Under the pieces are notes generated by a model. That model worked only from the letters and a program-made list of their open reading frames with translations, ran no database searches and was not told the DNA's origin. From Streptomyces sp. SLBN-118 (lineage in GTDB: Bacteria; Actinomycetota; Actinomycetes; Streptomycetales; Streptomycetaceae), in assembly GCF_006715635.1 (NCBI RefSeq), contig NZ_VFNP01000002.1, positions 3,348,001 through 3,412,000 of the forward strand: a stretch of DNA of 64,000 nucleotides, in the 5' to 3' direction. Made by a program: the position numbers and the translations under genes. Numbering within the stretch: position 1 is the stretch's first letter; each line of letters begins with the position of its first letter. This document shows, piece by piece, positions 28,909 to 60,792 of this stretch.

Positions 28909-28923
28909 CTGACGAACCGTCAG
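28909..28923. promoter_or_regulatory. palindromic operator, site 1
   Basis: CTGACGAACCGTCAG, a perfect 6-3-6 palindrome 26 nt upstream of the LLM oxidoreductase start (28882). One of eleven related sites in the catabolic regulon. Confidence 0.75.
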
Positions 28924-28970
28924 ATCTGGATGTGCCCGACTGTTCCACCGCGCGGGTGAGCCGTCAATAG

Positions 28971-28985
28971 CTGACGCATCGTCAG
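28971..28985. promoter_or_regulatory. palindromic operator, site 2
   Basis: CTGACGCATCGTCAG, a perfect 6-3-6 palindrome in the same promoter region as site 1, about 88 nt upstream of the LLM start. An everted half-site (CGTCAATAGCTGACG) overlaps it. Confidence 0.72.
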
Positions 28986-28991
28986 GCACGC

Positions 28992-29753
28992 TCAGAAAAG
29001 ACTCACACCTGCCAGCCAGCCTCCGTCGATGACGAAGGGCTGCCCGGTGATGTACGAGGAGTCCTCGCCGCTCAGGAAGAGCGCGAGCCGGGCGATCTCC
29101 TCCGGCCGCCCGACCCGGCCGAGGGGCACGAGCTTCTGGTACAGCTCGCTCACCGCCGCCGGGTCCACGCCGTCCGGATTGCTCATCGGGGTGTCCACCG
29201 CGCCCGGACAGACCGCGTTGACGCGTATCTTCTTCGCGGCCAGCTCCAGAGCGGCGACCCGGGTCAGGCCGAGGATCGCGTGCTTGCTCGCCGCGTACGC
29301 GCCTACACCCGCCATGCCCGTCAGGGCCGTGTACGAGGCGGTGTTGACGATCGTCCCGCCGCCGGCGGCCTCGATCTCGGGGGCGACCGTGCGGATGCCG
29401 AGGAAGCAGCCGACCTGGTTGACCTGGATGATCTGCTGGAACTCCTCCAGCGGCGTGGAGACCAGCTCGTTGAAGCGCAGAATGCCCGCGTTGTTGACCA
29501 GCCCGTCGATCTTGCCGAACGCATCCTTCGCGGCGGCGACGGCGGCGGTCCAGTCGTCTTCCCGGCCGACGTTGAGACGGACATAGGCAGCCGTGCCCTC
29601 ACCCAGCTCCTTGGCGAGGGCCTCGCCCTGGTCGTCGAGCACATCGCCGAGCACCACCCTGGCGCCCTCGGCGGCGAAGAGCCGTGCCTCCTGTTCGCCC
29701 TGGCCGCGCGCCGCGCCGGTGATCAGGACCACGCGTCCGTCGAGCTTTCCCAT
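28992..29753 (-). CDS. short-chain dehydrogenase/reductase (SDR)
   Basis: 253 residues from the ATG at 29753, preceded by AGGAGA at the right spacing; a GTG two codons upstream is the alternative. Classical SDR marks: VVLITGAARGQGEQEARLFA (TGxxxGxG), GLVNNAGILRF (NNAG), NTASYTALTGMAGVGAYAAS then K (catalytic Ser, Tyr, Lys), and the PGAVDTPM end of the active site. The C-terminal YITGQPFVIDGGWLAGVSLF is typical of 3-alpha/20-beta-hydroxysteroid dehydrogenase-like SDRs. Follows the LLM gene at 29799 in one operon (45-nt gap). Likely oxidises a ring or side-chain hydroxyl. Confidence 0.92.
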   Translation of the reverse strand: MGKLDGRVVLITGAARGQGEQEARLFAAEGARVVLGDVLDDQGEALAKELGEGTAAYVRLNVGREDDWTAAVAAAKDAFGKIDGLVNNAGILRFNELVSTPLEEFQQIIQVNQVGCFLGIRTVAPEIEAAGGGTIVNTASYTALTGMAGVGAYAASKHAILGLTRVAALELAAKKIRVNAVCPGAVDTPMSNPDGVDPAAVSELYQKLVPLGRVGRPEEIARLALFLSGEDSSYITGQPFVIDGGWLAGVSLF

Positions 29754-29798
29754 TGCCACTCTCCTCGGTTCAGGTGCGGGGTCAGTTCGGGTGCGGGG

Positions 29799-30746
29799 TC
29801 AGTTCAGATGGGGGGCCACGTCGGCGCCGAACGCCGCGATCTGGTCCGTGAGCTCGCCGCGGCTCCGGCTGCGGAACCGGACCTGGATCTGGTGCACACC
29901 CATCGCGGCGTAGGCACGCAGCGACTCGGCGATGGCCTCGGGCTTGCCGCTGACGGTGCGGCGCCCGATCTCCCAGTCGGCATCGCCCACATACAGCGGT
30001 TCGGTGATCGCCCCGATCTCGATGGGCGCGGTGATGCCCGCGTCCGCGCGCAGGGCCTTGAGCCTGGCGATCTGGTCGGGAAGCCGCGTACGCGGGTCGC
30101 CCTGCGGGAGCCAGCCGTCGCCTCGTACGGCGGCCCTGCGCACGGCGGCGGGCGAGGAACCGCCGACCCAGAGGGGGATGCGGCGCTGGGCCGGCCTGGG
30201 CCGCTGCCCGAGCCCGCTGAAGGAGAACCACTCCCCGGCGAACTCGGGAAACTCCTCCTCGCCGAGCGCCGCTCTGAGCGCGTCGATCGTCTCGTCGAGT
30301 ACGGGCCCGCGCGCGGCGAAGTCGACGCCGAGCGCCTCGAACTCCTCCTGGACATGCCCGGCCCCGACCCCGAGGATCAGCCGCCCGCCGGAGAGATGGT
30401 CGAGGGTGGCGTACTGCTTGGCGCTCACAAGCGGATGCCGCAGACCCACGACGGCCACATGGCTGAGCAGCCGCACGCGCTCGGTGATCCCGGCGAGAAA
30501 GGCGAGGGTGGCGACGGGGTCGTACCAGACGGTGGACATGGCGTCCGCGAGCCGCCGAGGGATGGCGACGTGATCGCAGGTGGCCAGGTAGGCGAACCCC
30601 GCCCGGTCGGCGGCACGGGCGATCTCGGCGAGATCCTCGGCGCCGGCGGCGGCTTCCCAGGACTCCGCGTAGATGGTGCTCTGCGACTGGACCGGGAGCT
30701 GCATTCCGTACGAGAGCTGCCCCTTGGGCAGTACCTGCACGTGCAC
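29799..30746 (-). CDS. LLM-class F420-dependent oxidoreductase
   Basis: 315 residues from a GTG at 30746 with a strong GGAGGAGG site. TIGR03619-like blocks: AGFAYLATCDHVAIPRRLAD, RVRLLSHVAVVGLRHPLVSA, ATLDHLSGGRLILGVGAGHV, and RIPLWVGGSSPAAVRRAAVR followed by GDGWLPQG. These point to F420 as cofactor, matching FbiC in the same window. First gene of the LLM-SDR operon; two operator palindromes (30769 and 30810) lie immediately upstream. Confidence 0.9.
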   Translation of the reverse strand: MHVQVLPKGQLSYGMQLPVQSQSTIYAESWEAAAGAEDLAEIARAADRAGFAYLATCDHVAIPRRLADAMSTVWYDPVATLAFLAGITERVRLLSHVAVVGLRHPLVSAKQYATLDHLSGGRLILGVGAGHVQEEFEALGVDFAARGPVLDETIDALRAALGEEEFPEFAGEWFSFSGLGQRPRPAQRRIPLWVGGSSPAAVRRAAVRGDGWLPQGDPRTRLPDQIARLKALRADAGITAPIEIGAITEPLYVGDADWEIGRRTVSGKPEAIAESLRAYAAMGVHQIQVRFRSRSRGELTDQIAAFGADVAPHLN

Positions 30747-30768
30747 CGTGCGCCTCCTCCGCCTTGAC

Positions 30769-30783
30769 CTGACGAACCGTCAA
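30769..30783. promoter_or_regulatory. palindromic operator, site 3
   Basis: CTGACGAACCGTCAA, one mismatch to the palindrome and otherwise identical to site 1. 22 nt upstream of the F420-type LLM start. Confidence 0.72.
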
Positions 30784-30809
30784 CCGGTCGGACGGGGCCA
30801 TCGTCGTAC

Positions 30810-30824
30810 CTGACGATCCATCAG
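30810..30824. promoter_or_regulatory. palindromic operator, site 4
   Basis: CTGACGATCCATCAG, one mismatch. Centred 41 nt from site 3, i.e. about four helical turns away, in the same promoter. Confidence 0.68.
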
Positions 30825-30853
30825 ACAAGAGGTGCGCGGGCGGCAACCTCCCC

Positions 30854-31138: not shown

Positions 31139-31292
31139 GCCGCTCACCGGCCTTCAGGCAGGCCCAGGCAGGCCCCTCCGCCGATGACGCTGGTGGCGGC
31201 CTGGTTCCCACCGGACGTGGCCGACGCGTGCCCGCGGCTGGCACAGACCGGGCCGATCGCGGAGGGCACGACGCACGCGCAGTCCTACGGCG

Positions 31293-31706: not shown

Positions 31707-31854
31707 GTCCTGAATGGTGACGGTGGGGGCGGCGCGCCACAACACCGCGGGCGGAGGCGCCAAGCACCTTCGGCTGCCTTATTGATCAGGAGTTGATCTG
31801 CCAGGTGGGTGGCTGAAGCAGTGCTACGCCTTGCGGCTCTCGATTCGTCGTCGC

Positions 31855-32845: not shown

Positions 32846-32894
32846 GTGCCCCTAGGTTCGGTGATTACGGGGCCGCGAAGGAGAGGGAGCAGCC

Positions 32895-33278
32895 GTGACC
32901 GATCCCGTAGAGCAGGCGTGCCCGATCAACCCGGTGATCGACCTGGTGTTCAGCCGCTGGACCACCCCCATCCTGTGGGTCCTGGAGCACCACGGCCGGC
33001 TGCGCTTCAACCAACTGCAGCGACACCTGCCAACCATCACCCCCAAAGTCCTCACCCAGCGCGTGCGCCAGCTCGAACGCGACGGCCTGATCATCCGCAC
33101 CTACCACGCTGAGATCCCCCCGCGGGTCGAGTACGAGATCAGCAACCTGGGCCGCACTCTGGTACCCCTCTTCGGCGCCATCACGGACTGGTCCCAAGCG
33201 CACTTTCCGCAGGTCGGCGACGCCCGCCGCGCCTACGACGCCGCGCGGCAGGAAGAAGAAGCCTGGGCCGAAGGCTGA
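32895..33278 (+). CDS. HxlR-family winged-helix regulator
   Basis: 127 residues from a GTG at 32895 with GGGAG upstream. HxlR signature: CPINPVIDLVFSRWTTPILW, VLEHHGRLRFNQLQRHLPTI, TPKVLTQRVRQLERDGLIIR, and the wing YHAEIPPRVEYEISNLGRTL. The conserved Cys near the N-terminus (QACPI) is the usual redox or electrophile sensor of this family. It probably controls the divergent luciferase-domain gene and, formerly, the azoreductase now truncated at 31855-32067. Confidence 0.92.
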   Translation: MTDPVEQACPINPVIDLVFSRWTTPILWVLEHHGRLRFNQLQRHLPTITPKVLTQRVRQLERDGLIIRTYHAEIPPRVEYEISNLGRTLVPLFGAITDWSQAHFPQVGDARRAYDAARQEEEAWAEG

Positions 33279-33994: not shown

Positions 33995-35230
33995 TCACAC
34001 CCCCGGGCCCGCCCACAGCCCCTCCGCCGTCAGGCCCAGCAGTTCGATCGCGTTGCCCCGCACGATCCGGTCCACCACCTCCGTCGCCAGGTGGCCCATC
34101 TGGGACTCACCGACCTCCTTCGACTTGGGCCAGGTCGAGTCCGAGTGCGGGTAGTCCGTCTCGTACAGGACGTTTCCGACGCCGATCGCGTCCAGGTTCT
34201 TCAGACCGAACGCGTCGTCGAAGAAGCAGCCGTACACATGCTCCGTGAAGAGTTCCGACGGCGGCCTGTGGACCTTGTCCGCCACTCCGCCCCAGCCGCG
34301 GTTCTCCTCCCACACCACGTCCGCGCGTTCCAGGATGTACGGGATCCAGCCGATCTGGCCCTCCGCGTACATGATCTTCAGGTTCGGGAAGCGCTCGAAC
34401 TTTCCGCTCATCAGCCAGTCGACCATCGAGAAACAGCAGTTGGCGAAGGTGATCGTCGAGCCGACGGCCGGCGGGGCGTCCGCCGAGGTGGAGGGCATCT
34501 TCGAGGACGAGCCGATGTGCATCGCGATGACCGTGCCGGTCTCGTCGCAGGCCTGGAGGAAGGGATCCCACTCGTCCGTGTGAATCGAGGGCAGGCCCAG
34601 GTGCGGCGGGATCTCCGAGAAGGCGACGGCACGGACACCGCGCGCCGCGTTGCGGCGGACCTCGGCGGCGGCCAGGCGGGCGTCCCAGAGCGGGATGAGG
34701 GTCAGCGGGATCAGACGGCCCCTGGCGTCGGGGCCGCACCACTCCTCCACCATCCAGTCGTTGTACGCCCGCACTCCGAGCAGGCCCAGTTCACGGTCCT
34801 TGGCCTCGGTGAAGGTCTGGCCGCAGAAGCGCGGGAAGGTCGGGAAGCACAGGGCCGACTGGACATGGTTGACGTCCATGTCGGCAAGGCGGTCCGGGAC
34901 GCTGAAGGAACCCGTCCGCATCTGCTCGTACGTGATGACCTCGAGCTTGATCTCGTCGCGGTCGTAGCCGACGGCGGTGTCGAGGCGGGTCAGCGGCCGG
35001 TGCAGGTCCTCGTACACCCACCAGTCGCCCATCGGCCCGTCGTCCCCCTGCGCGCCCATCACCGGGGCGAACTTGCCGCCCATGAAGGTCATTTCCTTCA
35101 GTGGCGCGCGGACGATGCGCGGGCCTGTGTCCCGGTACTTCGACGGGAGCCGGTCCCGCCAGACGTTGGGGGGCTCAACCGTGTGGTCGTCCACCGAGAT
35201 GATCTTCGGGAAGGTCTCCATGCCTTCCAC
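33995..35230 (-). CDS. metal-dependent amidohydrolase (Amidohydrolase_2 family)
   Basis: 411 residues from a GTG at 35230 (an ATG at 35221 is possible; AAGG favours the GTG). TIM-barrel marks are ISVDDHTVEPPNVWRDRLP (DxH), a middle VIAMHIGSSSKMPS His, and LYETDYPHSDSTWPKSK (catalytic Asp). Relatives hydrolyse or decarboxylate CoA-free acids (ACMSD-like) in aromatic and steroid breakdown. Its promoter carries a perfect operator palindrome (35243-35257), so it belongs to the regulon. Confidence 0.88.
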   Translation of the reverse strand: MEGMETFPKIISVDDHTVEPPNVWRDRLPSKYRDTGPRIVRAPLKEMTFMGGKFAPVMGAQGDDGPMGDWWVYEDLHRPLTRLDTAVGYDRDEIKLEVITYEQMRTGSFSVPDRLADMDVNHVQSALCFPTFPRFCGQTFTEAKDRELGLLGVRAYNDWMVEEWCGPDARGRLIPLTLIPLWDARLAAAEVRRNAARGVRAVAFSEIPPHLGLPSIHTDEWDPFLQACDETGTVIAMHIGSSSKMPSTSADAPPAVGSTITFANCCFSMVDWLMSGKFERFPNLKIMYAEGQIGWIPYILERADVVWEENRGWGGVADKVHRPPSELFTEHVYGCFFDDAFGLKNLDAIGVGNVLYETDYPHSDSTWPKSKEVGESQMGHLATEVVDRIVRGNAIELLGLTAEGLWAGPGV

Positions 35231-44851: not shown

Positions 44852-46417
44852 TCACGCCACCCCCGCCCGCGCCCGGAGCTCGCCCTTCAAGACCTTCCCG
44901 CTCGCATTCCGCGGCAGATCCCCCACGAACTCCACCTCCCTCGGCACCTTGTAATTCGCCATCTCCCGCCGCGACCACGCGATCAGATCGTCCGCCGTCA
45001 GCGTCGACCCCGCGCGCCGTACCGCGTACGCCTTGCCCACCTCGCCCAGCCGGGCGTCCGGTATGCCGATCACCGCGATGTCCGCGATGTCCGGGTGCAG
45101 GCCGAGCAGTTGCTCGATCTCCGCCGGGTAAGCGTTGAAGCCGCCGACGATGAACATGTCCTTGATCCGGTCGGTGATCCGGAGGTTGCCGCCCTCGTCC
45201 AGCACCCCCACGTCCCCCGTCCTGAGCCAGCCGTCCTCCGTGATCGCCCTCGCGGTCTCTTCCGGGTCCTCGAAGTAGCCCTGCATCACGTTGTGCCCGC
45301 GCACCAGCACCTCACCGGGCTCGCCGCCCGCCGCCGCCACGCGAACCTCCGTGCCGGGGATCGCGCGGCCCGAGGTGATCGCGATCGTCTCTGGGGCGTC
45401 GCCGCGGCGGCACATGGTGACGATGCCGCTCGCCTCGGAGAGCCCGTACGCCGTCAGGACGGTGTCGATGTGGAGTTCGGTGCGCAGTCGCTCGACCAGC
45501 TGGAGCGGCACCACCGCCGCGCCGGTGACGACGAGCCGGAGCGCGGTCAGATCGTGCTGGTCGCGCGCCGGATGGTCGAGCAGGGACTGGTGCAGCGTCG
45601 GCGGGCCCGGCAGGACCGAGATGCGCTCGGATGCGATGTTGGCCAGCACGGTGTCGACGTTGAAGACGGGCTGCGGCACCATCGTCGCGCCGCGCGTGAG
45701 GCAGGCGATGATGCCCGCCTTGTAGCCGAAGGTGTGGAAGAAGGGGTTCACGATCAGATAGCGGTCGCCTTCCCGCAACCCGGCGAGCTCGCTCCACACG
45801 TCATAGCAGCGCAGGGTCTGCGCGTGGGTGATGACGGCCCCTTTGGGGCGGCCGGTGGTGCCCGAGGTGTAGATGATGTCGGAGGGGGCCGAGGACCGGA
45901 TCGAGTCGGCCCGGGTGCGTACGTCCGCCGCCGTGACGCCGTCGCCGCCCGCCAGGAAGTCCTTCCAGGTGCGGTAGTCCTCGGGGGCGCTGTCGGCGAG
46001 GACCACCACCTGCTCCAGATCGGGCAGGTCCACCTCCGCGCGCCGCAGGGACGCGACGTACGAGGTGCCGAGGAAGGTGCCGGTGACGAAGAGCAGTCTG
46101 GCGCGGCAGCGTTGGAGGACGTACGCGGCTTCCGTGCCCTTGAAGCGGGTGTTCAGCGGTACCAGTACCGCCCCGGCCGTCACCGCGCCGAGTGCCGAGA
46201 CGATCCAGTCGAGGGTGTTGGGAGCCCAGATGGCGATCCGGTCGCCGGGCCGCACACCTGCCGCCATACACGCGGCGGCGGCGCGTTCGACGCGCTCGCC
46301 CAGTTCGGCGTACGAGACGCGGGTGCGGCCCTCGACGACGGCCTCCCGGTCCGCGTACCGTCCGGCAGCGCTCCGTACCAGCCTCGGGATGGTGCCCCAC
46401 TCCAGGTCGCCGCGCAT
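44852..46417 (-). CDS. fadD3: acyl-CoA synthetase, FadD3-like (HIP-CoA ligase type)
   Basis: 521 residues. ANL-enzyme motifs: IIYTSGTTGRPKGAVITHAQ (P-loop), VLTAYGLSEASGIVTMCRRG, WLRTGDVGVLDEGGNLRITD, DMFIVGGFNAYPAEIEQLLG and the terminal catalytic Lys (NASGKVLKGEL). NPFFHTFGYKAGIIACLTRG and SVLPGPPTLHQSLLDHPARD closely match mycobacterial FadD3 as remembered, which activates the steroid C/D-ring acid HIP. It is divergent from the lipid-transfer gene, sharing operator site 6. The substrate may be HIP-like or another alicyclic acid. Confidence 0.85.
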   Translation of the reverse strand: MRGDLEWGTIPRLVRSAAGRYADREAVVEGRTRVSYAELGERVERAAAACMAAGVRPGDRIAIWAPNTLDWIVSALGAVTAGAVLVPLNTRFKGTEAAYVLQRCRARLLFVTGTFLGTSYVASLRRAEVDLPDLEQVVVLADSAPEDYRTWKDFLAGGDGVTAADVRTRADSIRSSAPSDIIYTSGTTGRPKGAVITHAQTLRCYDVWSELAGLREGDRYLIVNPFFHTFGYKAGIIACLTRGATMVPQPVFNVDTVLANIASERISVLPGPPTLHQSLLDHPARDQHDLTALRLVVTGAAVVPLQLVERLRTELHIDTVLTAYGLSEASGIVTMCRRGDAPETIAITSGRAIPGTEVRVAAAGGEPGEVLVRGHNVMQGYFEDPEETARAITEDGWLRTGDVGVLDEGGNLRITDRIKDMFIVGGFNAYPAEIEQLLGLHPDIADIAVIGIPDARLGEVGKAYAVRRAGSTLTADDLIAWSRREMANYKVPREVEFVGDLPRNASGKVLKGELRARAGVA

Positions 46418-46497: not shown

Positions 46498-47646
46498 ATG
46501 GCGAGCCTCAAGGACGCAGCCGCGATAGCCGGAATCGGACAGACGGCCTTCGCGAAACAACTCCCCGAATCCGAGAAGACCCTGGCCTGCCGGGCCATCC
46601 TGGCCGCGCTCGACGACGCGGGGATCGCCCCGTCGGAGGTCGACGGCTTTGCCTCGTACACCATGGAGGAGACGGACGAGGTCGAGATCGCGAAGTCCGT
46701 CGGCGCGGGTGACGTGACCTTCTTCTCCAAGGCCGGCTACGGCGGCGGCGGTTCGTGCGCCACCGTCGCCCATCTCGCCGGGGCCGTCGCGACCGGACAG
46801 GCGAGCGTGGGGGTCGCCTGGCGGTCCCGGAAGAGGGGCTCGGGACCCCGACCCTGGAAGAACACCGCAGTCCAGCTACCCACCCCCGCGCAGTGGACCC
46901 GGCCCTTCGGGCTGCTGCGCCCCGCGGACGAGATCGGCATGCTCGCGCGGCGCTATATGCACGAGTACGGCGCCACCCGCGACCACCTCTTCAATGTCGC
47001 CCTCGCCTGCCGCAACCGGGCCAACCAGAACCCCGCCGCCGTGATGTACGAACGGCCCCTGACGCGCGACATGTATATGACCTCGCGCTGGATCAGCGAG
47101 CCGCTCTGCCTCTTCGACAACTGCCTGGAGACCGACGGCGCGCTGGCCTGCGTCGTCGTCAGCGCCGAGCGCGCCCGCGACTGCCGGCACCGGCCGGTCT
47201 ACGTCCACTCCGCCGCCCAGGGCCTGCCCTCCCAGCACCACGGAATGGTCAACTACTGGAACGACGACCCGCTCACGGGACCCGCCTGGACGGCCGCCCG
47301 CCGGCTGTGGAAGACCGCCGACTTCGGCCCGCAGGACGTGGACGTCGCCCAGATATACGACGCGTTCACCCCGCTCATACCGCTCTCCCTGGAGGGCTAC
47401 GGCTTCTGCGGCAGGGGTGAGGGCGCGGCGTTCACCGAGGGCGGCGCCCTGGAGATCGGGGGCCGCCTCCCGCTCAACACCGGCGGCGGCGGACTCTCCG
47501 AGGCGTATGTCCACGGCTTCAACCTCATCAACGAGGGTGTGAAGCAACTGCGCGGCACGTCCACCGCACAGGTCCCCGACGCCGCTACCTGCCTGGTCAC
47601 AGCGGGCGAGGGAGTTCCCACGTCGGCCGTTCTGCTGAGGAGTTGA
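46498..47646 (+). CDS. thiolase-fold lipid-transfer protein / putative aldolase (Ltp2-like)
   Basis: 382 residues. SCP2/thiolase-like: AAIAGIGQTAFAKQLPESEK, VTFFSKAGYGGGGSCATVAH, MHEYGATRDHLFNVALACRN, NCLETDGALACVVVSAERAR, VAQIYDAFTPLIPLSLEGYG and LPLNTGGGGLSEAYVHG. The thiolase nucleophilic Cys is not in a canonical context; GGSC and YDAF suit the Ltp2 group, which catalyses retro-aldol cleavage of steroid side-chain CoA esters together with a DUF35 protein. The DUF35 gene follows by 1 nt. Functional class is inferred from that pairing. Confidence 0.8.
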   Translation: MASLKDAAAIAGIGQTAFAKQLPESEKTLACRAILAALDDAGIAPSEVDGFASYTMEETDEVEIAKSVGAGDVTFFSKAGYGGGGSCATVAHLAGAVATGQASVGVAWRSRKRGSGPRPWKNTAVQLPTPAQWTRPFGLLRPADEIGMLARRYMHEYGATRDHLFNVALACRNRANQNPAAVMYERPLTRDMYMTSRWISEPLCLFDNCLETDGALACVVVSAERARDCRHRPVYVHSAAQGLPSQHHGMVNYWNDDPLTGPAWTAARRLWKTADFGPQDVDVAQIYDAFTPLIPLSLEGYGFCGRGEGAAFTEGGALEIGGRLPLNTGGGGLSEAYVHGFNLINEGVKQLRGTSTAQVPDAATCLVTAGEGVPTSAVLLRS

Positions 47647-47647: not shown

Positions 47648-48073
47648 ATGCTCACACCGGTCCTCGACGAGGACGGCGCGCCGTTCTGGGAGTACGCCGC
47701 GCAGGGCGAGCTGCGCATCCAGAACTGCGCTGCCTGCGGTGAGCTGCGCTTCCCGCCGCGGCCCTGCTGTCCGCACTGCGGGTCCTTCGACAGCCAGTGG
47801 CGCAGGATGAGCGGGCGCGGCCGGATCTGGTCCTATGTCGTCCCCCACCCGCCGCTGCTGCCCGCGTACGCGGCCGTGGCTCCGTACAACGCGGTCGTCG
47901 TCGAACTCCTGGACGCGCCCCGGATCCGGCTGGTGGGCAATGTGGTCGCGGCGCCGGATGCCCCGCTCGACTCCGTCGACCCGGCGGGGCTGCGGATCGG
48001 CGCCGGGGTGAAGGTGGCGTTCACGCGACTCGACGGCATCACCGTGCCGCGCTGGCTCCTGGAGCGGGCATGA
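47648..48073 (+). CDS. DUF35 zinc-ribbon/OB-fold protein, partner of the Ltp-like protein
   Basis: 141 residues. N-terminal rubredoxin-like zinc ribbon: CAACGELRFPPRPCCPHCGS (CxxC...CxxC), then an OB-fold (MSGRGRIWSYVVPHPPLLPA, VAPYNAVVVELLDAPRIRLV). In steroid catabolism DUF35 proteins (ChsH2 C-terminal half) form the active complex with Ltp2. Coupled to the Ltp gene (1-nt gap) and to the hydratase (ATGA overlap). Confidence 0.9.
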   Translation: MLTPVLDEDGAPFWEYAAQGELRIQNCAACGELRFPPRPCCPHCGSFDSQWRRMSGRGRIWSYVVPHPPLLPAYAAVAPYNAVVVELLDAPRIRLVGNVVAAPDAPLDSVDPAGLRIGAGVKVAFTRLDGITVPRWLLERA

Positions 48074-48843
48074 GCGTCCGTGTCGAGACCGAGAAGGAGA
48101 CGGGCGTCGCCTGCGTCACGCTGGACCGGCCCGAGAAGCACAACGCGATCGATCTGGGAATGGCTGGGGAACTGGCCTCTGTGTGGCGGGAGTTCCGCTT
48201 CGACGACACCGTGCGGGCGGTGGTGGTGACGGGCGCGGGCGACAAGGCCTTCTGCACCGGCATCGACCGCTCGGTGGACGTGCGGCAGCCCTCGTCCCCG
48301 TACTCGATCGACGATCCGCTGATCGCGATCGGCCCGAAGGCGAACGACCTGTGGAAGCCGGTGATCGCGGCGGTGGAGGGGATGGCGTGCGGCGGGGCTT
48401 TCTATCTGCTCGGCGAGAGCGAGTTCGTGGTGGCCTCGCGGGAAGCCACATTCTTCGATCCGCATACGACATACGGCATGGTCAGCGCGTACGAAACGAT
48501 CTATCTGGCACAGCGCATGCCGTACGGCGAAGTGGCGCGGACAGCGCTGATGGGGACGGCGGAACGGACGTCGGCGCGGCGGGCGTACGAGACGGGGCTG
48601 GTGTCCGAACTCACGGAGCCGGGTGGGGCGTTGGACGCGGCGCTGGGATGCGCCCGGATCATCGCGTCGTACCCCACGGGGGCGGTGCAGGGGACGGTAC
48701 GGGCTGTGTGGGCGGCCCGGGAGGGGGCGCGGGGACAGGCGGTGGCCCATGCGCCGCACCTGATCGCTCTGGGGAATCTGGCGGCAGAGGGGCAGGCGGA
48801 GCTGTTCCAGGGGCGGGGGCGGGGCGGGTACCGGTTGCGGTAG
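48070..48843 (+). CDS. enoyl-CoA hydratase/isomerase family protein
   Basis: 257 residues, ATGA-coupled to the DUF35 gene. Crotonase fold: VACVTLDRPEKHNAIDLGMA, VVVTGAGDKAFCTGIDRSVD, VIAAVEGMACGGAFYLLGES (oxyanion hole). At the second catalytic Glu position the sequence is FFDPHTTYGMVSAYET rather than the usual P-E-V and G-L-x-P-D/E, so a true hydratase activity is uncertain; it may be an isomerase or hydrolase. Third gene of the Ltp - DUF35 - Ech operon. Confidence 0.88.
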   Translation: MSVRVETEKETGVACVTLDRPEKHNAIDLGMAGELASVWREFRFDDTVRAVVVTGAGDKAFCTGIDRSVDVRQPSSPYSIDDPLIAIGPKANDLWKPVIAAVEGMACGGAFYLLGESEFVVASREATFFDPHTTYGMVSAYETIYLAQRMPYGEVARTALMGTAERTSARRAYETGLVSELTEPGGALDAALGCARIIASYPTGAVQGTVRAVWAAREGARGQAVAHAPHLIALGNLAAEGQAELFQGRGRGGYRLR

Positions 48844-53650: not shown

Positions 53651-53881
53651 GGGTGTGGCACCCGTCACACTCAAGTTAACGGCGCCCGCCGCGGGCCGCA
53701 GGGAATCAAATCGAACATTTGCCTCATTACGCGACTGCGTGCCGACAATGCGGCATGAACGGGGCCCGGAATTGTTGAGTTGTCCACCGAAGTTGTCCAC
53801 AGGCTGTTGATAAGACTATTGGTGCACCCCATTTGCAGTCGGCCGAATCGCGCGCCGATCACCCCTCGGTAAGCTGACGGC

Positions 53882-54529
53882 ATGACAGGACAAGTACGCA
53901 CCGTCGACGGCCGCGTGGCCGGACGACGCGGACAGGCGACGCGGCAGAAGCTGCTCGACTGCCTCAGCGAGATGCTCAGCTCCTCGCCGTACCGGGACGT
54001 CAAAGTCATCGACGTGGCCCGGAAGGCGGGCACGTCCCCCGCGACCTTCTACCAGTACTTCCCCGACGTCGAGGGCGCGGTCCTCGAGATCGCCGAGGAA
54101 ATGGCCAAGGAGGGCGCCGGGTTGACCGAACTCGTCTCCGGCCGCTCCTGGGTCGGCAAGGCGGGCTGGCAGACGTCGGAGGAACTGGTCGAGGGCTTCC
54201 TCGACTTCTGGCGACGCCACGACGCGATTCTGCGGGTGGTGGACCTGGGGGCCGCGGAGGGGGACAAGCGGTTCTACAAGATCCGCATGAAGATCCTCAA
54301 CTCCGTCACCAACTCTCTCACGGACGCCGTGAAGGACCTGCAGTCCAGGGGCAAGGTCGACAAGGACGTCAGCCCGGCGGCGATGGCAGGATCGCTGGTG
54401 GCGATGCTGGCGGCGGTGGCGTCGCATCAGAAGGGGTTCACGACCTGGGGTGTGAAACAGGCGGAACTGAAGCCGAATCTGGCGCTGTTGGTGCATTTGG
54501 GCATCACGGGCAAGAAGCCGACGAAGTAG
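53882..54529 (+). CDS. TetR-family regulator, candidate repressor of the catabolic regulon
   Basis: 215 residues. N-terminal TetR helix-turn-helix (residues 18-65: GQATRQKLLDCLSEMLSSSP, VKVIDVARKAGTSPATFYQY, FPDVEGAVLEI), then an all-helical ligand domain (EELVEGFLDFWRRHDAILRV ... PAAMAGSLVAMLAAVASHQK). The only TetR in the window; it lies amid the operator-carrying transcription units. No copy of the palindrome itself is seen at its own promoter (CTGACGGCATGACAG at 53874 is only half matching). A role as regulon repressor is inference. Confidence 0.9.
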   Translation: MTGQVRTVDGRVAGRRGQATRQKLLDCLSEMLSSSPYRDVKVIDVARKAGTSPATFYQYFPDVEGAVLEIAEEMAKEGAGLTELVSGRSWVGKAGWQTSEELVEGFLDFWRRHDAILRVVDLGAAEGDKRFYKIRMKILNSVTNSLTDAVKDLQSRGKVDKDVSPAAMAGSLVAMLAAVASHQKGFTTWGVKQAELKPNLALLVHLGITGKKPTK

Positions 54530-54630: not shown

Positions 54631-55800
54631 TCACCGCGTCGCGAACAGTCCCGCCCGTTCGGCCGCATGGGCGCGCAGCCGGTGGACCGGGCCGAACAGG
54701 AGCTCGTCCGCGGCCGCCCGTTTGAAGTAGAGATGCGCCTCGTGTTCCCAGGTGAAGCCGATGCCTCCGTGCAGCTGGATCGCCTCGCCCGTCACCGTCC
54801 GCAGCGCCTGAAGGCACTGGGCCAGCGCCAGCCCGCCCTCCGCCGGGTCCCAGGCCGCGTAGTACGCCGCCGAGCGTGCCGCCTGGACGCATACGTACAG
54901 GTCGGCGAGCCGGTGCTTGACCGCCTGGAAGGAGCCGATCGCCCGGCCGAACTGTTCGCGGGCGCGGACATGCTCGACCGTCCGGTCCAGCGCGCTCGCC
55001 GCCGCGCCGACCGCCTCCGCCGCGAGCAGGGCCGCCGCTCCGGCCCCCACGGCCGCCAGCGCCTCCGGCACATCCGCCGCATCGTCCTCGCCCAGCAGCC
55101 GGGCCGGGCAGTCCCGCAGTTCGATCCGTGCCTGCGGCCGTGTCTCGTCCAGTGAGGTCTGCCGGGTGCGCGCCAGACCCGCCGCATCCGCCCGGACCAG
55201 GAAGAGGAGGGTACGGCTGCGGGCGTAGCCACCCGTGTGCGCGGCGACGAGCAGCAATCCGGCGCTGTGCCCGTCGAGGACCTGGCCGGCCTCCCCGTAC
55301 AGCATCCATGTCGCGCCGTCCCCGGGCCGCGCCTGTACGCCACCGGCCCGGCCGCCGCCCGCCCACTGTCCCGAGGTGTTGTCGCCGCTCAGGGCCAGCG
55401 CGAGCGCCAGGCCCCCGCCCGGCACGGCGAATGCGCAGGTCAGCGAGCCGTCCGCGATACGGGGCAGCAGTTCGCCCCGCTGCTCGGGCGTCCCCAGTGC
55501 GGCGATCAGCGGCGCACAGAGCCCGGCCGTGGCCAGCAGCGGCGAGGGCAGCAGAGCCCGCCCGGTCTCCTCGCATGCGAGCGCGAGGTCGGTCAGGCCG
55601 CAGCCCACGCCTCCGTACGACGCGGGCAGTGCGAGGCCCGGCAGGCCGAGCTGCCCGGACAGCTGCGCCCACAGCTGCGGGTCGTACCCGGCGGGGGTGC
55701 GGACAGCGGCCTTGACCTCGTCCGGGCCCGACCGTTTGGCCAGCAGCTCGCGCAGGGTGCGACGGATCTCGTCCTGCTCCGCGGTGAAGGCGGTGTCCAT
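54631..55800 (-). CDS. acyl-CoA dehydrogenase family protein
   Basis: 389 residues. FAD/CoA fold: MDTAFTAEQDEIRRTLRELL, then LALPASYGGVGCGLTDLALA, CAFAVPGGGLALALALSGDN, REQFGRAIGSFQAVKHRLAD and VTGEAIQLHGGIGFTWEHEA. The usual catalytic Glu near 240-260 is not obvious, as in the heterodimer alpha-type FadEs of steroid catabolism, which need a partner subunit. No second subunit is next to it. Operator site 7 is 17 nt upstream of its start. Confidence 0.88.
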   Translation of the reverse strand: MDTAFTAEQDEIRRTLRELLAKRSGPDEVKAAVRTPAGYDPQLWAQLSGQLGLPGLALPASYGGVGCGLTDLALACEETGRALLPSPLLATAGLCAPLIAALGTPEQRGELLPRIADGSLTCAFAVPGGGLALALALSGDNTSGQWAGGGRAGGVQARPGDGATWMLYGEAGQVLDGHSAGLLLVAAHTGGYARSRTLLFLVRADAAGLARTRQTSLDETRPQARIELRDCPARLLGEDDAADVPEALAAVGAGAAALLAAEAVGAAASALDRTVEHVRAREQFGRAIGSFQAVKHRLADLYVCVQAARSAAYYAAWDPAEGGLALAQCLQALRTVTGEAIQLHGGIGFTWEHEAHLYFKRAAADELLFGPVHRLRAHAAERAGLFATR

Positions 55801-55943: not shown

Positions 55944-57122
55944 ATGCCATCCACCCCGCGAACTCCGCGCAAGGTCGCCATCGTCGGCATATCCCTCTCG
56001 GACTGCGGGCGTATCGATGGCCCCACGCCCTACGCCCTGCACGCCCAGGCCGCGCGCCGGGCACTGTCCGACTCAGGACTCGAACGCTCCGTCATCGACG
56101 GCTTCGGCTCGGCGGGCCTCGGCATCCTCGCCCCGGTCGAGGTCGCCGAATACCTGGGCCTGAAACCGCGCTGGGTGGACTCGACCGCTGTGGGCGGCGC
56201 CACCTGGGAGGTCATGGCGGCACACGCGGCCGACGCGATCGCGGCCGGTCACGCCAATGCCGTGCTCCTCGTCTACGGATCGACGGCACGGGCCGACATC
56301 ACGGCGCGGCGGCGCACCGCCAACCTCTCCTACGGCGCGCGCGGACCGCTCCAGTTCGAGGTTCCGTACGGGCACACGCTGATCGCCAAGTACGCGATGG
56401 CCGCCCGCCGCCATATGCACCAGTACGGCACGACGCTGGAACAGCTCGCCTCGGTGGCCGTCCAGGCACGGGCGAACGCCGCGGCCAATCCGGACGCGAT
56501 GTTCCGCGAGCCGGTCACCGTCGACGAGGTGCTGGACGGGCCGATGATCGCGGACCCCTTCACCAAACTGCACTGCTGCATCCGCAGCGACGGCGGCTGC
56601 GCGGTGCTGCTGGCGGCCGAGGAGTACGTGCGGGACACGGCGAAGGCTCCGGTGTGGATCCTCGGCACCGGTGAGTACGTCTCGCACACCACGATGTCGG
56701 AGTGGGAGGACTTCACCGTCTCCCCGGCGGCGGTGAGCGGACGCCTCGCCTTCGAGCGCGCGGGTGTCACACCCGCCGACATCGACATCGCCGAGCTCTA
56801 TGACGCCTTCACCTATATGACTCTCGTGACGCTGGAGGACCTGGGCTTCTGCGCCAAGGGAGAGGGCGGCCCATTTGTCGAAAAGGGCCGGATCGGGCCC
56901 GGCGGTGAGCTGCCGGTGAACACCGACGGCGGCGGCCTCTCCGCCTGCCATCCGGGGATGCGCGGGCTGTTTCTGCTGGTCGAGGCGGTACGGCAGTTGC
57001 GGGGCGAGGCAGGCGGCCACCAGGTGCGGCGACGGGACGGAGCCCCGCCGCGGCTTGCGGTGGCGTCCGGCACGGGGGGCTGGTTCTGCTCGTCCGCAAC
57101 GGTGGTGCTGGGCCGGGACTGA
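55944..57122 (+). CDS. thiolase-fold lipid-transfer protein, second copy
   Basis: 392 residues. KVAIVGISLSDCGRIDGPTP, VDSTAVGGATWEVMAAHAAD, YGHTLIAKYAMAARRHMHQY, FTKLHCCIRSDGGCAVLLAA, AELYDAFTYMTLVTLEDLGF and LPVNTDGGGLSACHPGMRG are the same blocks as the gene at 46498 but at low identity. The Cys of thiolases is replaced in VGGATWE; the AELYDAF and NTDGGG blocks place it with Ltp-type aldolases/hydrolases. The nearest DUF35 gene is at 58385 (minus strand), so the complex might form between separate operons. Confidence 0.82.
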   Translation: MPSTPRTPRKVAIVGISLSDCGRIDGPTPYALHAQAARRALSDSGLERSVIDGFGSAGLGILAPVEVAEYLGLKPRWVDSTAVGGATWEVMAAHAADAIAAGHANAVLLVYGSTARADITARRRTANLSYGARGPLQFEVPYGHTLIAKYAMAARRHMHQYGTTLEQLASVAVQARANAAANPDAMFREPVTVDEVLDGPMIADPFTKLHCCIRSDGGCAVLLAAEEYVRDTAKAPVWILGTGEYVSHTTMSEWEDFTVSPAAVSGRLAFERAGVTPADIDIAELYDAFTYMTLVTLEDLGFCAKGEGGPFVEKGRIGPGGELPVNTDGGGLSACHPGMRGLFLLVEAVRQLRGEAGGHQVRRRDGAPPRLAVASGTGGWFCSSATVVLGRD

Positions 57123-57749: not shown

Positions 57750-58433
57750 ATGGACCGTATGGATCACAGGGGCAACGATCAGAAGGCGTTCCGTACGCTG
57801 CTGCACGCGCAGCGGGTGTGGGACACCGAGCTTCCCGCGTTCGACCCGGCCACCGCGCCCGGAACACCGCTGCCGCTGTTCCACCGGTGGTTCGCGGAGG
57901 CCGTGGCCGCAGCTCAGGCCGAGCCGCACACCATGACGCTGGCGACCGTGGACGAGCTAGGGCTTCCCGACGTACGGACGCTGATTCTGCACGACGCGGA
58001 CGAGCGCGGCTGGCACTTCGCCTCCCACTCCACCAGCGCGAAGGGCCGGCAGCTGGCCGCGAACCCCGAGGCCGCCCTGGGCTTCTACTGGGCGGCGCAG
58101 GGCCGCCAGATCCGGATCCGCGGACGGGTGACGTCGGGCAGCCCGCCGGAGAGCCAGGCCGATCTGCATGCCCGCTCGACCGGCGCTCTGGCCGCCGCGC
58201 TCACCGGCCGCCAGAGTGAAGTCCTGGATTCCCAGGACGAGTTGATGTACGCCTCGCAGGCCGCGTGGGACCGGGCCCGGAGGGAGCCGGACCTGCCGGT
58301 GCCGACCTGGACGCTCTATGTGCTGGGGCCGTACGAGGTGGAGTTCTTCCAGGGGGACGGGCAGCGGCGCCACATCCGGCTGCGCTACCGGCGCGAAGAG
58401 GACTCCTGGGTGAGGGAGTTGCTCTGGCCCTGA
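57750..58433 (+). CDS. pyridoxamine 5'-phosphate oxidase-like flavoprotein
   Basis: 227 residues from the ATG at 57750 (MDRMDHRGNDQ). PdxH/PhzG-type blocks: FHRWFAEAVAAAQAEPHTMT, LATVDELGLPDVRTLILHDA, GWHFASHSTSAKGRQLAANP, ALGFYWAAQGRQIRIRGRVT (FMN binding) and the C-terminal RHIRLRYRREEDSWVRELLW. Pyridoxamine phosphate oxidases end with R-L-x-P; here LLWP. It may oxidise pyridoxamine phosphate or act on a specialised substrate. The last 49 nt overlap the end of the DUF35 gene on the other strand. Confidence 0.87.
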   Translation: MDRMDHRGNDQKAFRTLLHAQRVWDTELPAFDPATAPGTPLPLFHRWFAEAVAAAQAEPHTMTLATVDELGLPDVRTLILHDADERGWHFASHSTSAKGRQLAANPEAALGFYWAAQGRQIRIRGRVTSGSPPESQADLHARSTGALAAALTGRQSEVLDSQDELMYASQAAWDRARREPDLPVPTWTLYVLGPYEVEFFQGDGQRRHIRLRYRREEDSWVRELLWP

Positions 58434-58870
58434 TCCGCCGGCCGGAACACCGGGACGGCCACGCCGTCCCCCTCGGCAGCATCCGCAGCGCCCGTGGCGT
58501 CCGCACGAAAGGTGACCTCCAGCTCCATGCCGATCCGCAGCTCCGCCTGCGGGCACTCGACGATTTCCGTCATCATCCGCGGACCTTCGGCAAGATCGAC
58601 GACCGCGGCGGTGTACGGAACGCGCTCACCGAACGGCGGGAGGTCATTGCGGTGCACGACCGACCATGTGTAGAGCGTGGCCCGGCCGCTCGCCCGCTCC
58701 CATTCGACGTCCTCGCCCCAGCAGTACGGGCAGAACTCCCGCGGGTAGTGGTGCGCCTTCGCGCAGGCACGGCAGCGGCGGATCAGCAGCCGGCCTTCGG
58801 CAGCCGCGTCCCAGAACGGCCGGGTGAAGTCGTCGGCCTCGGGCAGGTCGAAGCGGGGTGCCGCGGGCAT
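58385..58870 (-). CDS. DUF35 zinc-ribbon/OB-fold protein, second copy
   Basis: 161 residues from the ATG at 58870, sharing one base with the DoxX stop (TGATG). Zinc ribbon: CRACAKAHHYPREFCPYCWG; OB part: RATLYTWSVVHRNDLPPFGE, TAAVVDLAEGPRMMTEIVEC. The final 40 residues are Ala/Asp-rich. A partner for a thiolase-fold lipid-transfer protein; candidate pairing with the gene at 55944. Downstream of DoxX in one operon with operator site 9. Confidence 0.88.
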   Translation of the reverse strand: MPAAPRFDLPEADDFTRPFWDAAAEGRLLIRRCRACAKAHHYPREFCPYCWGEDVEWERASGRATLYTWSVVHRNDLPPFGERVPYTAAVVDLAEGPRMMTEIVECPQAELRIGMELEVTFRADATGAADAAEGDGVAVPVFRPADQGQSNSLTQESSSRR

Positions 58871-59319
58871 CAGAACAGTCCGAGCGCGCTGTCGAGGGAC
58901 CAGGTCTGCCAGGACATGGCGAAGAGGGCGACGAACGATATGAGTGCCATCATGGCGTTCTGCCCCTGTTCGGCCCAGTCGTGGATCATCAGGACCAGAT
59001 AGATCAGGTTGAGGAGCAGTCCGCCGAGGAGGGCGATCGGGGTGAGGAAGCCGACGATCAGTCCGAGACCGAGGGCGAGTTCGGCGTAGACGACGATGTA
59101 CGCCATGGCCCTGGGGCGCGGCTGGACCACCTTCTCGAAGCCGTTCTTCACCACGGGCCATCTGTGCCTGCCCGCGACGTCGGCGGCCCAGGAAATGCCG
59201 GTGCCGCGCTCGAACCAGCCCTTCTTGTCCTTGTGGCGCCAGCTCTCCAGCCACCACAGGCCGAGACCGATGCGGAGTACGGCCAGCCATTCGGCGCCGG
59301 CGAGCCAGACGGTCTCCAT
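58870..59319 (-). CDS. DoxX-family membrane protein
   Basis: 149 residues with four helices: EWLAVLRIGLGLWWLESWRH, AYIVVYAELALGLGLIVGFL, TPIALLGGLLLNLIYLVLMI and MALISFVALFAMSWQTWSLD. The first helix and the GLGLxxG..LTPIALLGG loop are typical of DoxX/TQO-like quinone-associated proteins. Promoter carries operator site 9; coupled to the DUF35 gene. Might feed electrons from an oxidation step to the membrane (inference). Confidence 0.85.
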   Translation of the reverse strand: METVWLAGAEWLAVLRIGLGLWWLESWRHKDKKGWFERGTGISWAADVAGRHRWPVVKNGFEKVVQPRPRAMAYIVVYAELALGLGLIVGFLTPIALLGGLLLNLIYLVLMIHDWAEQGQNAMMALISFVALFAMSWQTWSLDSALGLF

Positions 59320-59342
59320 CCCGGACTCCCTCTCTCTTAATT

Positions 59343-59357
59343 CTGACGGTACGTCAG
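59343..59357. promoter_or_regulatory. palindromic operator, site 9
   Basis: CTGACGGTACGTCAG, a perfect palindrome 24 nt upstream of the doxX start and about 114 nt upstream of the divergent monooxygenase start. Confidence 0.75.
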
Positions 59358-59470
59358 TTCAGCGGATGCGAAGGCATGTGCGCAAGAGGTGTGCGGGCGT
59401 GATCAATTCGCAACCAATTCCCGTCTTGACTGAGACCCATCGAGTAATCACGCGATTACGCTCACGGTTC

Positions 59471-60622
59471 ATGGCCGACGAAAAGGACATCACGCTCACC
59501 AATGACCGGCCCGTGTACGTGATCGGCGCCGGCCCGGGTGGTCTCGCGGCAGCCGCGGCACTTCGGGAGCGGGGCGTACGAGCGGTGGTGCTGGAGAAGT
59601 CCGAGTCCGTGGGCGCGTCCTGGCGCAGGCATTACGACCGGCTGCACCTGCACACCACCCGGCGGCTCTCCGGGCTGCCCGGGCTCGCGATGCCGCGGCA
59701 GTTCGGCCGCTGGGTCTCCCGCGACAACGTGATCCGCTACCTGGAGAAGTACGCGGAGTTCCACGAGCTGGAGATCGTCACGGGCGTCGAGGTCTCCCGT
59801 ATCGAGCAGCCCGGCGCCGACTGGCTGCTCCACGCCACCGGCGGCCGGCAGCTGACCGGCCGGGCCGTCGTGGTCGCCACGGGCTTCAACCACACCCCGA
59901 GGCTGCCGGACTGGCCGGGCCACGAGGCGTACACCGGTGAACTGCTGCACGCGGGCGAGTACCGCAACGCAGCGCCCTACGCGGGCAAGGACGTGCTGGT
60001 CGTCGGCATCGGCAACACGGGCGCGGAGATAGCCGTCGACCTGGTGGAGGGCGGGGCCGCCAAGGTCCGCATCGCCGTACGGACGATCCCGCACATCGTC
60101 CGCCGCTCGACCGCGGGCTGGCCCGCCCAGCGCACCGGCATCCTGGTCCGCCGGCTGCCGGTCCGCCTCGTGGACCGGGCGGGCGACATCATGCGCCGCA
60201 TCGCTGTTCCCGACCTCGCCGAACAGGGCCTGCCACGCCCGGACACGGGCCTGTACTCCCGCGTCAAGGAAGGCGCGATCCCGGTCCAGGACGTGGGCCT
60301 GATCGACGCGGTACTCACCGGCAAGGTCGAACCGGTCGCGGCGCTGGACTCCTTCGACGCCGGCAAGGCGGTCCTCGCGGACGGCACCCGGATCTCCCCG
60401 GACACGGTGATCGCGGCGACGGGCTACCGCCGGGCCCTGGAGGGCATGGTCGGCCACCTCGGTGTACTGGACGAACGGGGACGGCCGGTGGTGCACGGGG
60501 GAAGGTCGCCCGAGACGGCACCGGGGCTGTACTTCACGGGGTTCACGAACCCGATCAGCGGGATGTTCCGGGAGCTGGCGATCGACGCGCGGCGGATCGC
60601 GCGGGCGGTGGCGGCGGGCTGA
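59471..60622 (+). CDS. FAD-dependent NAD(P)/FMO-type monooxygenase
   Basis: 383 residues from the ATG at 59471. GxGxxG for FAD (VYVIGAGPGGLAAAAALRER), FMO-like SVGASWRRHYDRLHLHTTRR, second Rossmann motif (VLVVGIGNTGAEIAVDLVEG) for NADPH, and ATG-type ends (VVVATGFNHTPRLPDWPGHE, VIAATGYRRAL). Similar in plan to YUC-like and Baeyer-Villiger monooxygenases; the BVMO fingerprint FxGxxxHxxxW is not clear. Divergent from doxX; probably oxygenates an early substrate of the regulon. Confidence 0.88.
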   Translation: MADEKDITLTNDRPVYVIGAGPGGLAAAAALRERGVRAVVLEKSESVGASWRRHYDRLHLHTTRRLSGLPGLAMPRQFGRWVSRDNVIRYLEKYAEFHELEIVTGVEVSRIEQPGADWLLHATGGRQLTGRAVVVATGFNHTPRLPDWPGHEAYTGELLHAGEYRNAAPYAGKDVLVVGIGNTGAEIAVDLVEGGAAKVRIAVRTIPHIVRRSTAGWPAQRTGILVRRLPVRLVDRAGDIMRRIAVPDLAEQGLPRPDTGLYSRVKEGAIPVQDVGLIDAVLTGKVEPVAALDSFDAGKAVLADGTRISPDTVIAATGYRRALEGMVGHLGVLDERGRPVVHGGRSPETAPGLYFTGFTNPISGMFRELAIDARRIARAVAAG

Positions 60623-60753
60623 CCCCGTACCGGCGCGCACACTCAAATCCGCCCGCCTGAGGGCTCATTTTCAGCCCCTCCGGCGATTGAGGAGGCGCCC
60701 GCAGTTCGGGGCGAGGCTGGGTGGGAACAAAGCACGTACACGCAGGAGTGTTC

Positions 60754-60768
60754 CTGACTGGTCGTCAG
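60754..60768. promoter_or_regulatory. palindromic operator, site 10
   Basis: CTGACTGGTCGTCAG, one mismatch, extended on both sides to CCTGAC...GTCAGG. 29 nt upstream of the CoA ligase start (ATG at 60797). Confidence 0.75.
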
Positions 60769-60777
60769 GTCTGTAAT

Positions 60778-60792
60778 CTGACTATACGTCAG
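60778..60792. promoter_or_regulatory. palindromic operator, site 11
   Basis: CTGACTATACGTCAG, one mismatch; centred 24 nt from site 10 and ending 4 nt before the ATG at 60797. It therefore covers the start region, which favours leaderless initiation or the downstream ATG at 60827. Confidence 0.75.

Follow-up and report, generated by a model that had tools for sequence, protein, structure and literature searches.

In this work we have analysed a 64,000-nucleotide stretch of the 7.79-Mb genome of Streptomyces sp. SLBN-118 (C2:3348001-3412000, C2 being contig NZ_VFNP01000002.1), called the window below, in which copies of a 15-bp palindrome, CTGACKNNNCGTCAG, stand in front of scattered catabolic genes. 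Very likely the palindrome serves as operator for the TetR_C_38 regulator encoded at 53882-54529 and controls a dispersed regulon for side-chain catabolism. The sites, their conservation, the gene set behind them and their association with the TetR gene are computed observations. A preliminary description of this DNA, which had read the palindromes as the mark of one catabolic regulon under a TetR repressor, is supported by our results; it missed the extension of the regulon beyond the window, the probable oxygenase nature of one of the enzymes (AH2) and the likeness to steroid side-chain degradation.

Eleven copies with no or one mismatch had been reported, and we found all of them at the given positions and none elsewhere in the window. 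Counted on both strands they amount to 22 matches, whereas 100 dinucleotide shuffles gave a mean of 1.30 and a maximum of 7, none reaching 22. After extension of the window by 16 kb to the left and 20 kb to the right, the resulting 100 kb contained 16 sites that agree with CTGACGNNNCGTCAG in all positions or all but one, from window-relative position -6813 to 78828, the five outside the window being those at -6813, 65419, 73619, 78750 and 78828. An extent of 32 kb had been given earlier; the cluster spans about 86 kb, and unlinked operons carry the site as well. All 16 sites are intergenic, overlap no called gene and have a start codon nearby; gene prediction relied on a codon model of our own making, and in the placement of sites we use intergenic to mean not wholly inside a gene. 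A position matrix trained on 73 sites from 17 other Streptomyces loci, which are partly orthologous to the sites scored, reached 8 bits or more at 17 places of the 100 kb (about 83% of it coding), of which 16 lie between genes and one, at 53874, lies across the TetR start codon. The operator is longer than 15 bp, approximately AT-CTGACG-N3-CGTCAG-AT, and its spacer varies. The window sites are situated 5-90 bp upstream of a start codon, a spacing which, as had been pointed out, would suit the blocking of a promoter by a repressor. The predicted operators of the window, with their matrix scores, are the following:

28909..28923, operator 27 bp before the LLM1 start, 28.4 bits
28971..28985, operator 89 bp before the LLM1 start, 20.9 bits
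30769..30783, operator 23 bp before the LLM2 start, 11.5 bits, the weakest of the eleven
30810..30824, operator 64 bp before the LLM2 start, 23.5 bits
35243..35257, operator 13 bp before the AH2 start, 28.3 bits
46462..46476, operator between the divergent genes FadD3 and Thl1, 26.5 bits
53874..53888, weak operator across the start codon of the TetR gene, with two mismatches, 11.5 bits
55817..55831, operator 17 bp before the ACAD start, 28.5 bits
55925..55939, operator 5 bp before the Thl2 start, 29.7 bits
59343..59357, operator 24 bp before the DoxX start, 27.8 bits
60754..60768, operator 29 bp upstream of the ligase frame that begins at 60797, 18.9 bits
60778..60792, operator 5 bp upstream of the same ligase frame, 29.0 bits

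The genes that follow these sites, together with the TetR gene, are:

27761..28882, minus strand, LLM1, luciferase-like monooxygenase (LLM), PF00296, two operators upstream
28992..29753, minus strand, SDR1, short-chain dehydrogenase (SDR), PF13561 (scanned as 28992-29759), 46 bp from LLM2 on the same strand
29799..30746, minus strand, LLM2, TIGR03619 (Rv2161c-type) LLM oxidoreductase, 242.7 bits against a cut-off of 166.9
33995..35230, minus strand, AH2, an 'amidohydrolase' of PF04909 that has the six ligands of dinuclear oxygenases complete and is most similar to DitZ and PtmU3
44852..46417, minus strand, FadD3-family acyl-coenzyme A (CoA) ligase, 819 bits against a cut-off of 657
46498..47646, plus strand, Thl1, lipid-transfer-protein/thiolase, closest solved structure 6ok1
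47648..48073, plus strand, OBzf, ChsH2-type zinc ribbon/OB-fold protein
48070..48843, plus strand, ECH1, enoyl-CoA hydratase (ECH), EchA19-like below the cut-off (scanned as the longer frame 47797-48843)
53882..54529, plus strand, TetR regulator of the SCO4421 type, TetR_C_38 (PF19352)
54631..55800, minus strand, ACAD, IpdE2-like acyl-CoA dehydrogenase (ACAD), IpdE2 match below the cut-off
55944..57122, plus strand, Thl2, thiolase-like protein, PRK06158, 425.9 bits against a cut-off of 421
58385..58870, minus strand, second ChsH2-type zinc ribbon/OB-fold protein, putatively in an operon with DoxX
58870..59319, minus strand, DoxX-like membrane protein, weak Pfam hit
60797..63058, plus strand, ADP-forming acyl-CoA ligase (start put at 60827 by the gene caller)
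63049..63846, plus strand, ECH2, enoyl-CoA hydratase, putatively in an operon with the ligase (scanned as the longer frame 62866-63846)

Since the SDR gene 28992-29753 ends there, the sites at 28909 and 28971 both belong upstream of LLM1. SDR1 itself is probably co-transcribed with LLM2, as strand and spacing indicate. Two more genes on the same strand, one of them for an Amidohydro_3 protein, are found downstream of LLM1 at 24297-27484 of the window and possibly belong to the same operon.

Conservation of the sites was followed in 91 distinct loci around the TetR gene of other genomes (three of 94 were dropped as duplicates, our own window was excluded, and one locus is recorded as Streptosporangium). 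A site was counted if it fell within -200 to +30 of a gene start, and a gene was counted if it had at least 45% identity (KbpA in this set being exempt), a match beginning no later than residue 25 and 200 bp of sequence available upstream, others being dropped gene by gene. These site counts, the comparison of sites with genes and the genome tallies given below are raw counts over related genomes, uncorrected for relatedness. A site preceded ACAD in 64/64 relatives, Thl2 in 65/65, FadD3 in 46/46, Thl1 in 46/47 and the ADP-forming ligase in 29/30. The site at 59343 serves mainly the minus-strand DoxX/OB-fold operon, with a site before DoxX in 25/25 relatives; the neighbouring flavin monooxygenase (FMO) gene is ruled out as its conserved target, as it has a site in only 7/39. 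In its longest form, beginning at 59096, the FMO frame would include the site, but the domain match begins only near residue 139. No site was found upstream of ECH1 (0/52), ECH2 (0/18) or OBzf (0/51), all inner genes of presumed operons, and in the same set none preceded afsK (0/80), kbpA (0/70), pdxH (0/72) or afsR (0/13). A second set of 15 stretches, taken from Streptomyces whose TetR locus had regulon genes, showed a site at AH2 in 15/15, at LLM1 in 13/13, at LLM2 in 9/13, at SDR1 in 2/13 and at afsR in 0/15. The claim that afsR and afsK have no site thus holds in the window and in relatives, as it does in the window for afsS and the conservon, and in relatives the sites go with the catabolic genes and pass over the interleaved afsK and afsR. 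When the comparison was confined to loci with 4 kb or more of sequence past the TetR gene, which removes two contigs of about 3 kb from the 24 loci without catabolic genes, the 63 loci with such genes had 274 sites in 1.17 Mb (63/63 with at least one), against 9 sites in 0.42 Mb (5/22) for the 22 loci without them. It follows that sites and catabolic genes are gained and lost together, while the TetR gene stays.

In the whole genome the perfect palindrome occurs 12 times and its reversed control twice; with at most one mismatch there are 95 matches against 41, and 79 of the 95 lie outside the cluster. Six perfect copies belong to the cluster, and among the six elsewhere none is wholly inside a gene and two are located between convergent genes, one of these overlapping a gene end. 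These counts and placements indicate that perfect sites are mostly meaningful and that many one-mismatch sites outside the cluster, a minority of which we placed relative to genes, are background. Equally good matches inside genes, which had been named as the observation that would speak against a regulon, are thus missing from the 100 kb, where the only exception is the hit on the TetR start, but the genome-wide picture is less clean. Two high-scoring unlinked sites were traced through 41 Streptomyces genomes. The first, C1:3964671, is upstream of five same-strand genes (L032:5729-10505; C1:3964728 onward) for an ACAD, a MaoC/ChsH2 protein, a second ACAD, a MaoC protein and an Ltp2-like thiolase, an order which is the architecture of the mycobacterial igr operon. 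The two ACADs, the MaoC/ChsH2 hydratase and the Ltp2 aldolase are assigned here by family only, and the five genes are presumably co-transcribed. Of 49 matches listed for this operon, 30 were made into loci, namely all 19 of high identity and 11 of the 30 paralogues; the site was present in 19/19 orthologues including our own (72-100% identity), with its left edge 47-67 bp before the start, and in 1/11 paralogues (52-55% identity). The second site, C2:1069443, is upstream of an OB-fold/thiolase pair and was present in 29/30 loci, one per genome with a match.

What might such a regulon degrade? Matches above the NCBIfam cut-off were obtained for a thiolase (PRK07855, 583.6 against 469) besides FadD3, TIGR03619 and PRK06158, and matches to IpdE2, EchA19 and HsaB remained below it. 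The closest solved protein to Thl1 is 6ok1, named a lipid-transfer protein, which we take to be Ltp2 of Thermomonospora curvata, and a dehydrogenase downstream of the window is closest to Tcur3483. AH2 and a second PF04909 protein, AH2' (L023:13526-14719), have DitZ (8uyr) and PtmU3 (6omp) as their two best PDB hits. DitZ presumably points by its name to diterpenoids; its function was not found in open-licence PMC papers among the matches listed, and DitZ does not appear in the available part of a spruce-bark paper on dit clusters (PMC10710418). The dinuclear site of AibH2 has six metal ligands, Asp, His, His, Glu, Asp and His, as given in the accessible text of PMC7782822, and all six are present in AH2 and AH2' (DDH..E, H, E, DYPH.D; in AH2' by motif only). 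According to PMC7782822, PMC10811679 and PMC10401708, PtmU3 is a beta-hydroxylase of diterpenoid biosynthesis which takes CoA-ligated substrates, and AibH2, from the same superfamily, is a hydroxylase with a dinuclear site. Going by these ligands and hits, AH2 probably acts as a dinuclear oxygenase and not as a hydrolase. No HsaA, the sole ring-degradation gene looked for, was above the cut-off in our genome (best 27 bits, cut-off 450), and the steroid pathway is absent in 55/57 Streptomyces genomes according to PMC4810484; degradation of steroids proper is unlikely with HsaA absent. The enzyme set, the PtmU3-like oxygenases and the lack of HsaA together lead us to read the regulon as serving the oxidation and side-chain breakdown of an acid that resembles a steroid or terpenoid. 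We tentatively suggest, at somewhat less than even confidence, that this widespread and hitherto unrecognised Streptomyces pathway breaks down a non-sterol polycyclic isoprenoid, possibly the cell's own or a plant terpenoid, at its side chain and perhaps at ring positions, with PtmU3-like oxygenases and steroid-type enzymes under an acyl-CoA-responsive TetR_C_38 repressor expressed in sporulation, and that the same pair of regulator and operator governs related pathways in Frankiales, Actinomadura and Acidimicrobiia. Regulon and repressor could also be as proposed with ordinary branched or long fatty acids as the substrate, a reading which overlaps ours in all but the substrate. Beta-oxidation in general employs acyl-CoA dehydrogenases, hydratases, thiolases and ligases, and many of the NCBIfam hits are below the cut-off, but the igr-like operon, the Ltp/ChsH2-type pairs, the Tcur3483-like dehydrogenase, the PtmU3-like oxygenases and the LLM enzymes together are, in our general judgement, atypical of fatty acid oxidation, and we regard such a substrate as possible but rather doubtful.

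The other half of our proposal is the regulator, which had already been named as the binder, and the distribution of the palindrome lends this independent support. The protein encoded at 53882-54529 has 215 residues, matches PF19352 with 245.2 bits (cut-off 23.9) and has an AlphaFold model (mean pLDDT 92.1) with the all-helical TetR fold and a helix-turn-helix. A nucleoid occlusion factor of the SlmA type was rejected, the SlmA family scoring 25.2 bits against a cut-off of 120. Homologues (E<=1e-25) occur once in each of 28/28 Streptomyces and in 24/268 other genomes sampled from the class, and the recognition region TSPATFYQYF is almost unchanged in Frankiaceae and Frankiales homologues at about 50% identity. 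Sites near the homologues exceed the mean of 10 shuffles in Frankiaceae (8 loci, 24 against 1.0), in families f14 and f12 (7 loci, 17 against 1.8), in Actinomadura (4 loci, 19 against 0.5) and in three loci of metagenome-assembled genomes (MAGs; 3 against 0.3); the corresponding figures are 73 against 2.0 for 17 Streptomyces loci with catabolic genes and 6 against 1.1 for 10 without. The flanking A/T is shared by the sets from Streptomyces with genes, Frankiaceae, f14/f12 and Actinomadura and is weakest in Frankiaceae. An unguided scan for six-base inverted repeats placed CTGACG-N3-CGTCAG or its extension ATCTGA-N7-TCAGAT among the top three in our own, the f14/f12 and the Actinomadura loci, whereas in Frankiaceae other repeats ranked higher and it came fourth; its first place in a mixed set was discounted, as that set contained Sporichthyaceae (f13). 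At least six perfect sites are present in 31/47 TetR-bearing genomes against 1/244 genomes without a TetR hit when f13 is left out of these statistics, a choice made after seeing the counts, and in 36/52 TetR-bearing genomes with f13; 152 genomes with a match in total lie behind this tally. The sole TetR-less genome with so many is a 68%-complete f14 assembly, and seven other sampled f14 genomes bear TetR. The ADP-forming ligase and AH2 are also neighbours of TetR homologues in 4/4 Actinomadura loci; in two Acidimicrobiia MAGs the neighbours are LLM2, SDR and AH2. The TetR protein 53882-54529 is very probably the regulator of the regulon, as far as these comparisons of sequence can tell. At locus L076 a homologue (45% identity, one stop in frame) is found beside homologues of the ADP-forming ligase, Thl1, the OB-fold protein and AH2 with no palindrome; the operator may differ there.

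Could the operators be real and the regulon well defined, but the TetR gene a mere neighbour and another transcription factor the binder? The TetR gene has no site with at most one mismatch upstream of it in any of 91 Streptomyces loci (0/91), it persists in 22 loci without regulon genes, and there is an HxlR-type regulator at 32895-33278. On the other hand the palindrome accompanies TetR homologues in Frankiales and Actinomadura loci where no afsK or kbpA match was found, its genome-wide abundance tracks the presence of TetR, and no other TetR gene was seen among the scanned frames, which are part of the frames of the region. We consider this explanation unlikely.

The absence of a good site before the TetR gene and its retention in 22 Streptomyces loci with no local catabolic genes also weigh against TetR control of the regulon, as do several other results, and the latter loci imply that TetR acts on further targets or plays a different role. 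Fewer than six perfect sites were counted in 7/28 Streptomyces and 9/19 other TetR-bearing genomes (f13 left out), and the genomes with few sites include homologues at 35-37% identity (1-2 sites), at 43-45% (0) and one at 49% (1). The motif was not among the twelve repeats shown for the three MAG loci in the unguided scan, LLM2 lacks a site in 4/13 relatives, and an HsaB-type reductase lacks one in 6/9 (site in 3/9). The names of the enzymes rest on homology, several NCBIfam hits being below the cut-off. At the TetR start itself CTGACGNCATGACAG is found in 87/91 Streptomyces loci (an unselected count), TAAGCT stands directly before the start in 90/91 and the region 53862-53905 is nearly invariant, which suggests that the gene may be leaderless and self-repressed; constraint on promoter and coding sequence may explain part of this conservation. 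A further difficulty comes from SCO4421 of S. coelicolor, a TetR-family gene close to afsK as the TetR gene here is beside kbpA and afsK, the two being likely orthologues on the grounds of synteny. The available part of PMC3878966 reports that SCO4421 is up in sporulation and lower in a whiA mutant and that its deletion had no visible or otherwise detected phenotype; no regulon or operator is described in that part. This pattern of expression and the deletion without phenotype also fit a repressor of a dispensable catabolic pathway.

From the computed results we infer binding, repression, an inducer, autoregulation, the limits of the operons and the class of substrate as follows. A TetR dimer would bind AT-CTGACG-N3-CGTCAG-AT immediately ahead of start codons and prevent the transcription of operons within and next to the window, together with the unlinked igr-like ACAD/ChsH2/ACAD/MaoC/Ltp2 operon and the unlinked OB/thiolase operon. 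A bulky carboxylic acid, probably a polycyclic isoprenoid, would first be converted into its CoA ester by the FadD3-type and ADP-forming ligases and then oxidised by dehydrogenases, LLM enzymes, PtmU3-like dinuclear oxygenases and SDRs; after hydration, side-chain units would be split off in a retro-aldol or thiolytic reaction. Since a number of TetR proteins that govern lipid metabolism bind acyl-CoA ligands, a CoA intermediate is a likely inducer and would probably release the repressor; the fold hits of the TetR model include DesT and FadR in complex with acyl-CoA. It is also conceivable, but we think quite improbable, that TetR activates, or both activates and represses: some TetR proteins activate, and regulator and site alone do not fix the sign of control, whereas the window sites, 5-90 bp from a start codon, overlap the expected promoter and transcript start.

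The palindrome core is also over-abundant, as a further point against our proposal, in five genomes of the Sporichthyaceae (f13), all with TetR, which hold 109-218 perfect copies of CTGACGNNNCGTCAG each against 0-1 of the reversed control. In Sporichthya polymorpha the core occurs 135 times, spread over the chromosome; among 36 copies in 20 stretches, 17 are inside genes, 14 overlap a gene boundary and 5 are intergenic, stop codons are often held within the palindrome, and 51 copies show almost no flank preference, with AT flanks hardly present. We reject a further regulon in this family, on the one genome examined, because the copies are not promoter-like and have no AT flank; they are perhaps a chromosome-organising, uptake or terminator motif. 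That the Streptomyces palindromes, too, are structural repeats or terminators lying between genes by chance, as these copies and the two perfect sites between convergent genes in our own genome could suggest, is very improbable indeed, for they precede gene starts in nearly every relative, have the AT flanks that the Sporichthya copies lack and vary in their spacer.

Systems of this kind are known, the closest being the KstR and KstR2 regulons of mycobacteria and rhodococci. The KstR operator is of the AAC..GTT type and that of KstR2 of the CAAG..CTTG type, and CTGACG-N3-CGTCAG is unlike either, in a comparison by eye. As is proposed here, a TetR repressor acts there on many dispersed palindromic operators before side-chain catabolic operons with genes for CoA-ligases, dehydrogenases, hydratases and Ltp/ChsH2 proteins, an igr-type operon among them (see also PMC1995591 and PMC12502768). 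The regulator studied here is a PF19352 protein, with no KstR among the names of its 25 PDB sequence hits, and the gene set differs in having no HsaA over the cut-off and PtmU3-like oxygenases added. By fold, the closest solved protein is EthR, a TetR repressor of M. tuberculosis, which accounts for each of the top 25 Foldseek hits, at TM-scores of 0.75-0.79 (by query length) and a best E of 1.7e-07, although it shares 17-19% identity and belongs with another gene set; EthR controls ethA. A paper on a BCG TetR (PMC9301340) gives no operator in its available part, and no description of the regulon was found in open-licence PMC papers among the matches listed. The kind of system is thus known, as KstR-like, whereas this regulator, its operator and the probable pathway were not found described in those papers.

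Through the operator, a highly conserved and so far unassigned TetR gene next to afsK becomes the probable main switch for a defined set of genes in many Streptomyces, and scattered 'CoA' genes are gathered into one testable pathway. Part of the steroid-like set is present in 63/85 loci reaching at least 4 kb beyond TetR, a non-random sample, despite the lack of a steroid pathway in most Streptomyces genomes (PMC4810484, as above), and this contrast makes the natural substrate a question that can now be addressed. The symporter gene at L022:10168-11853, for a sodium/solute symporter, comes after an SDR gene behind the outermost operator and could encode an importer of the pathway. AH2 and AH2' are PF04909 proteins related to the dinuclear oxygenases PtmU3, AibH2 and SfbO and have the ligands described for AibH2; the two proteins here stand in a catabolic regulon, their activity being predicted, and would as oxygenases give a little explored group of enzymes a natural role. 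A 27.2-bit operator lies 18 bp before the start of a ferredoxin-NAD reductase gene (L026:8662-9903), whose product might supply the regulon's oxygenases with electrons.

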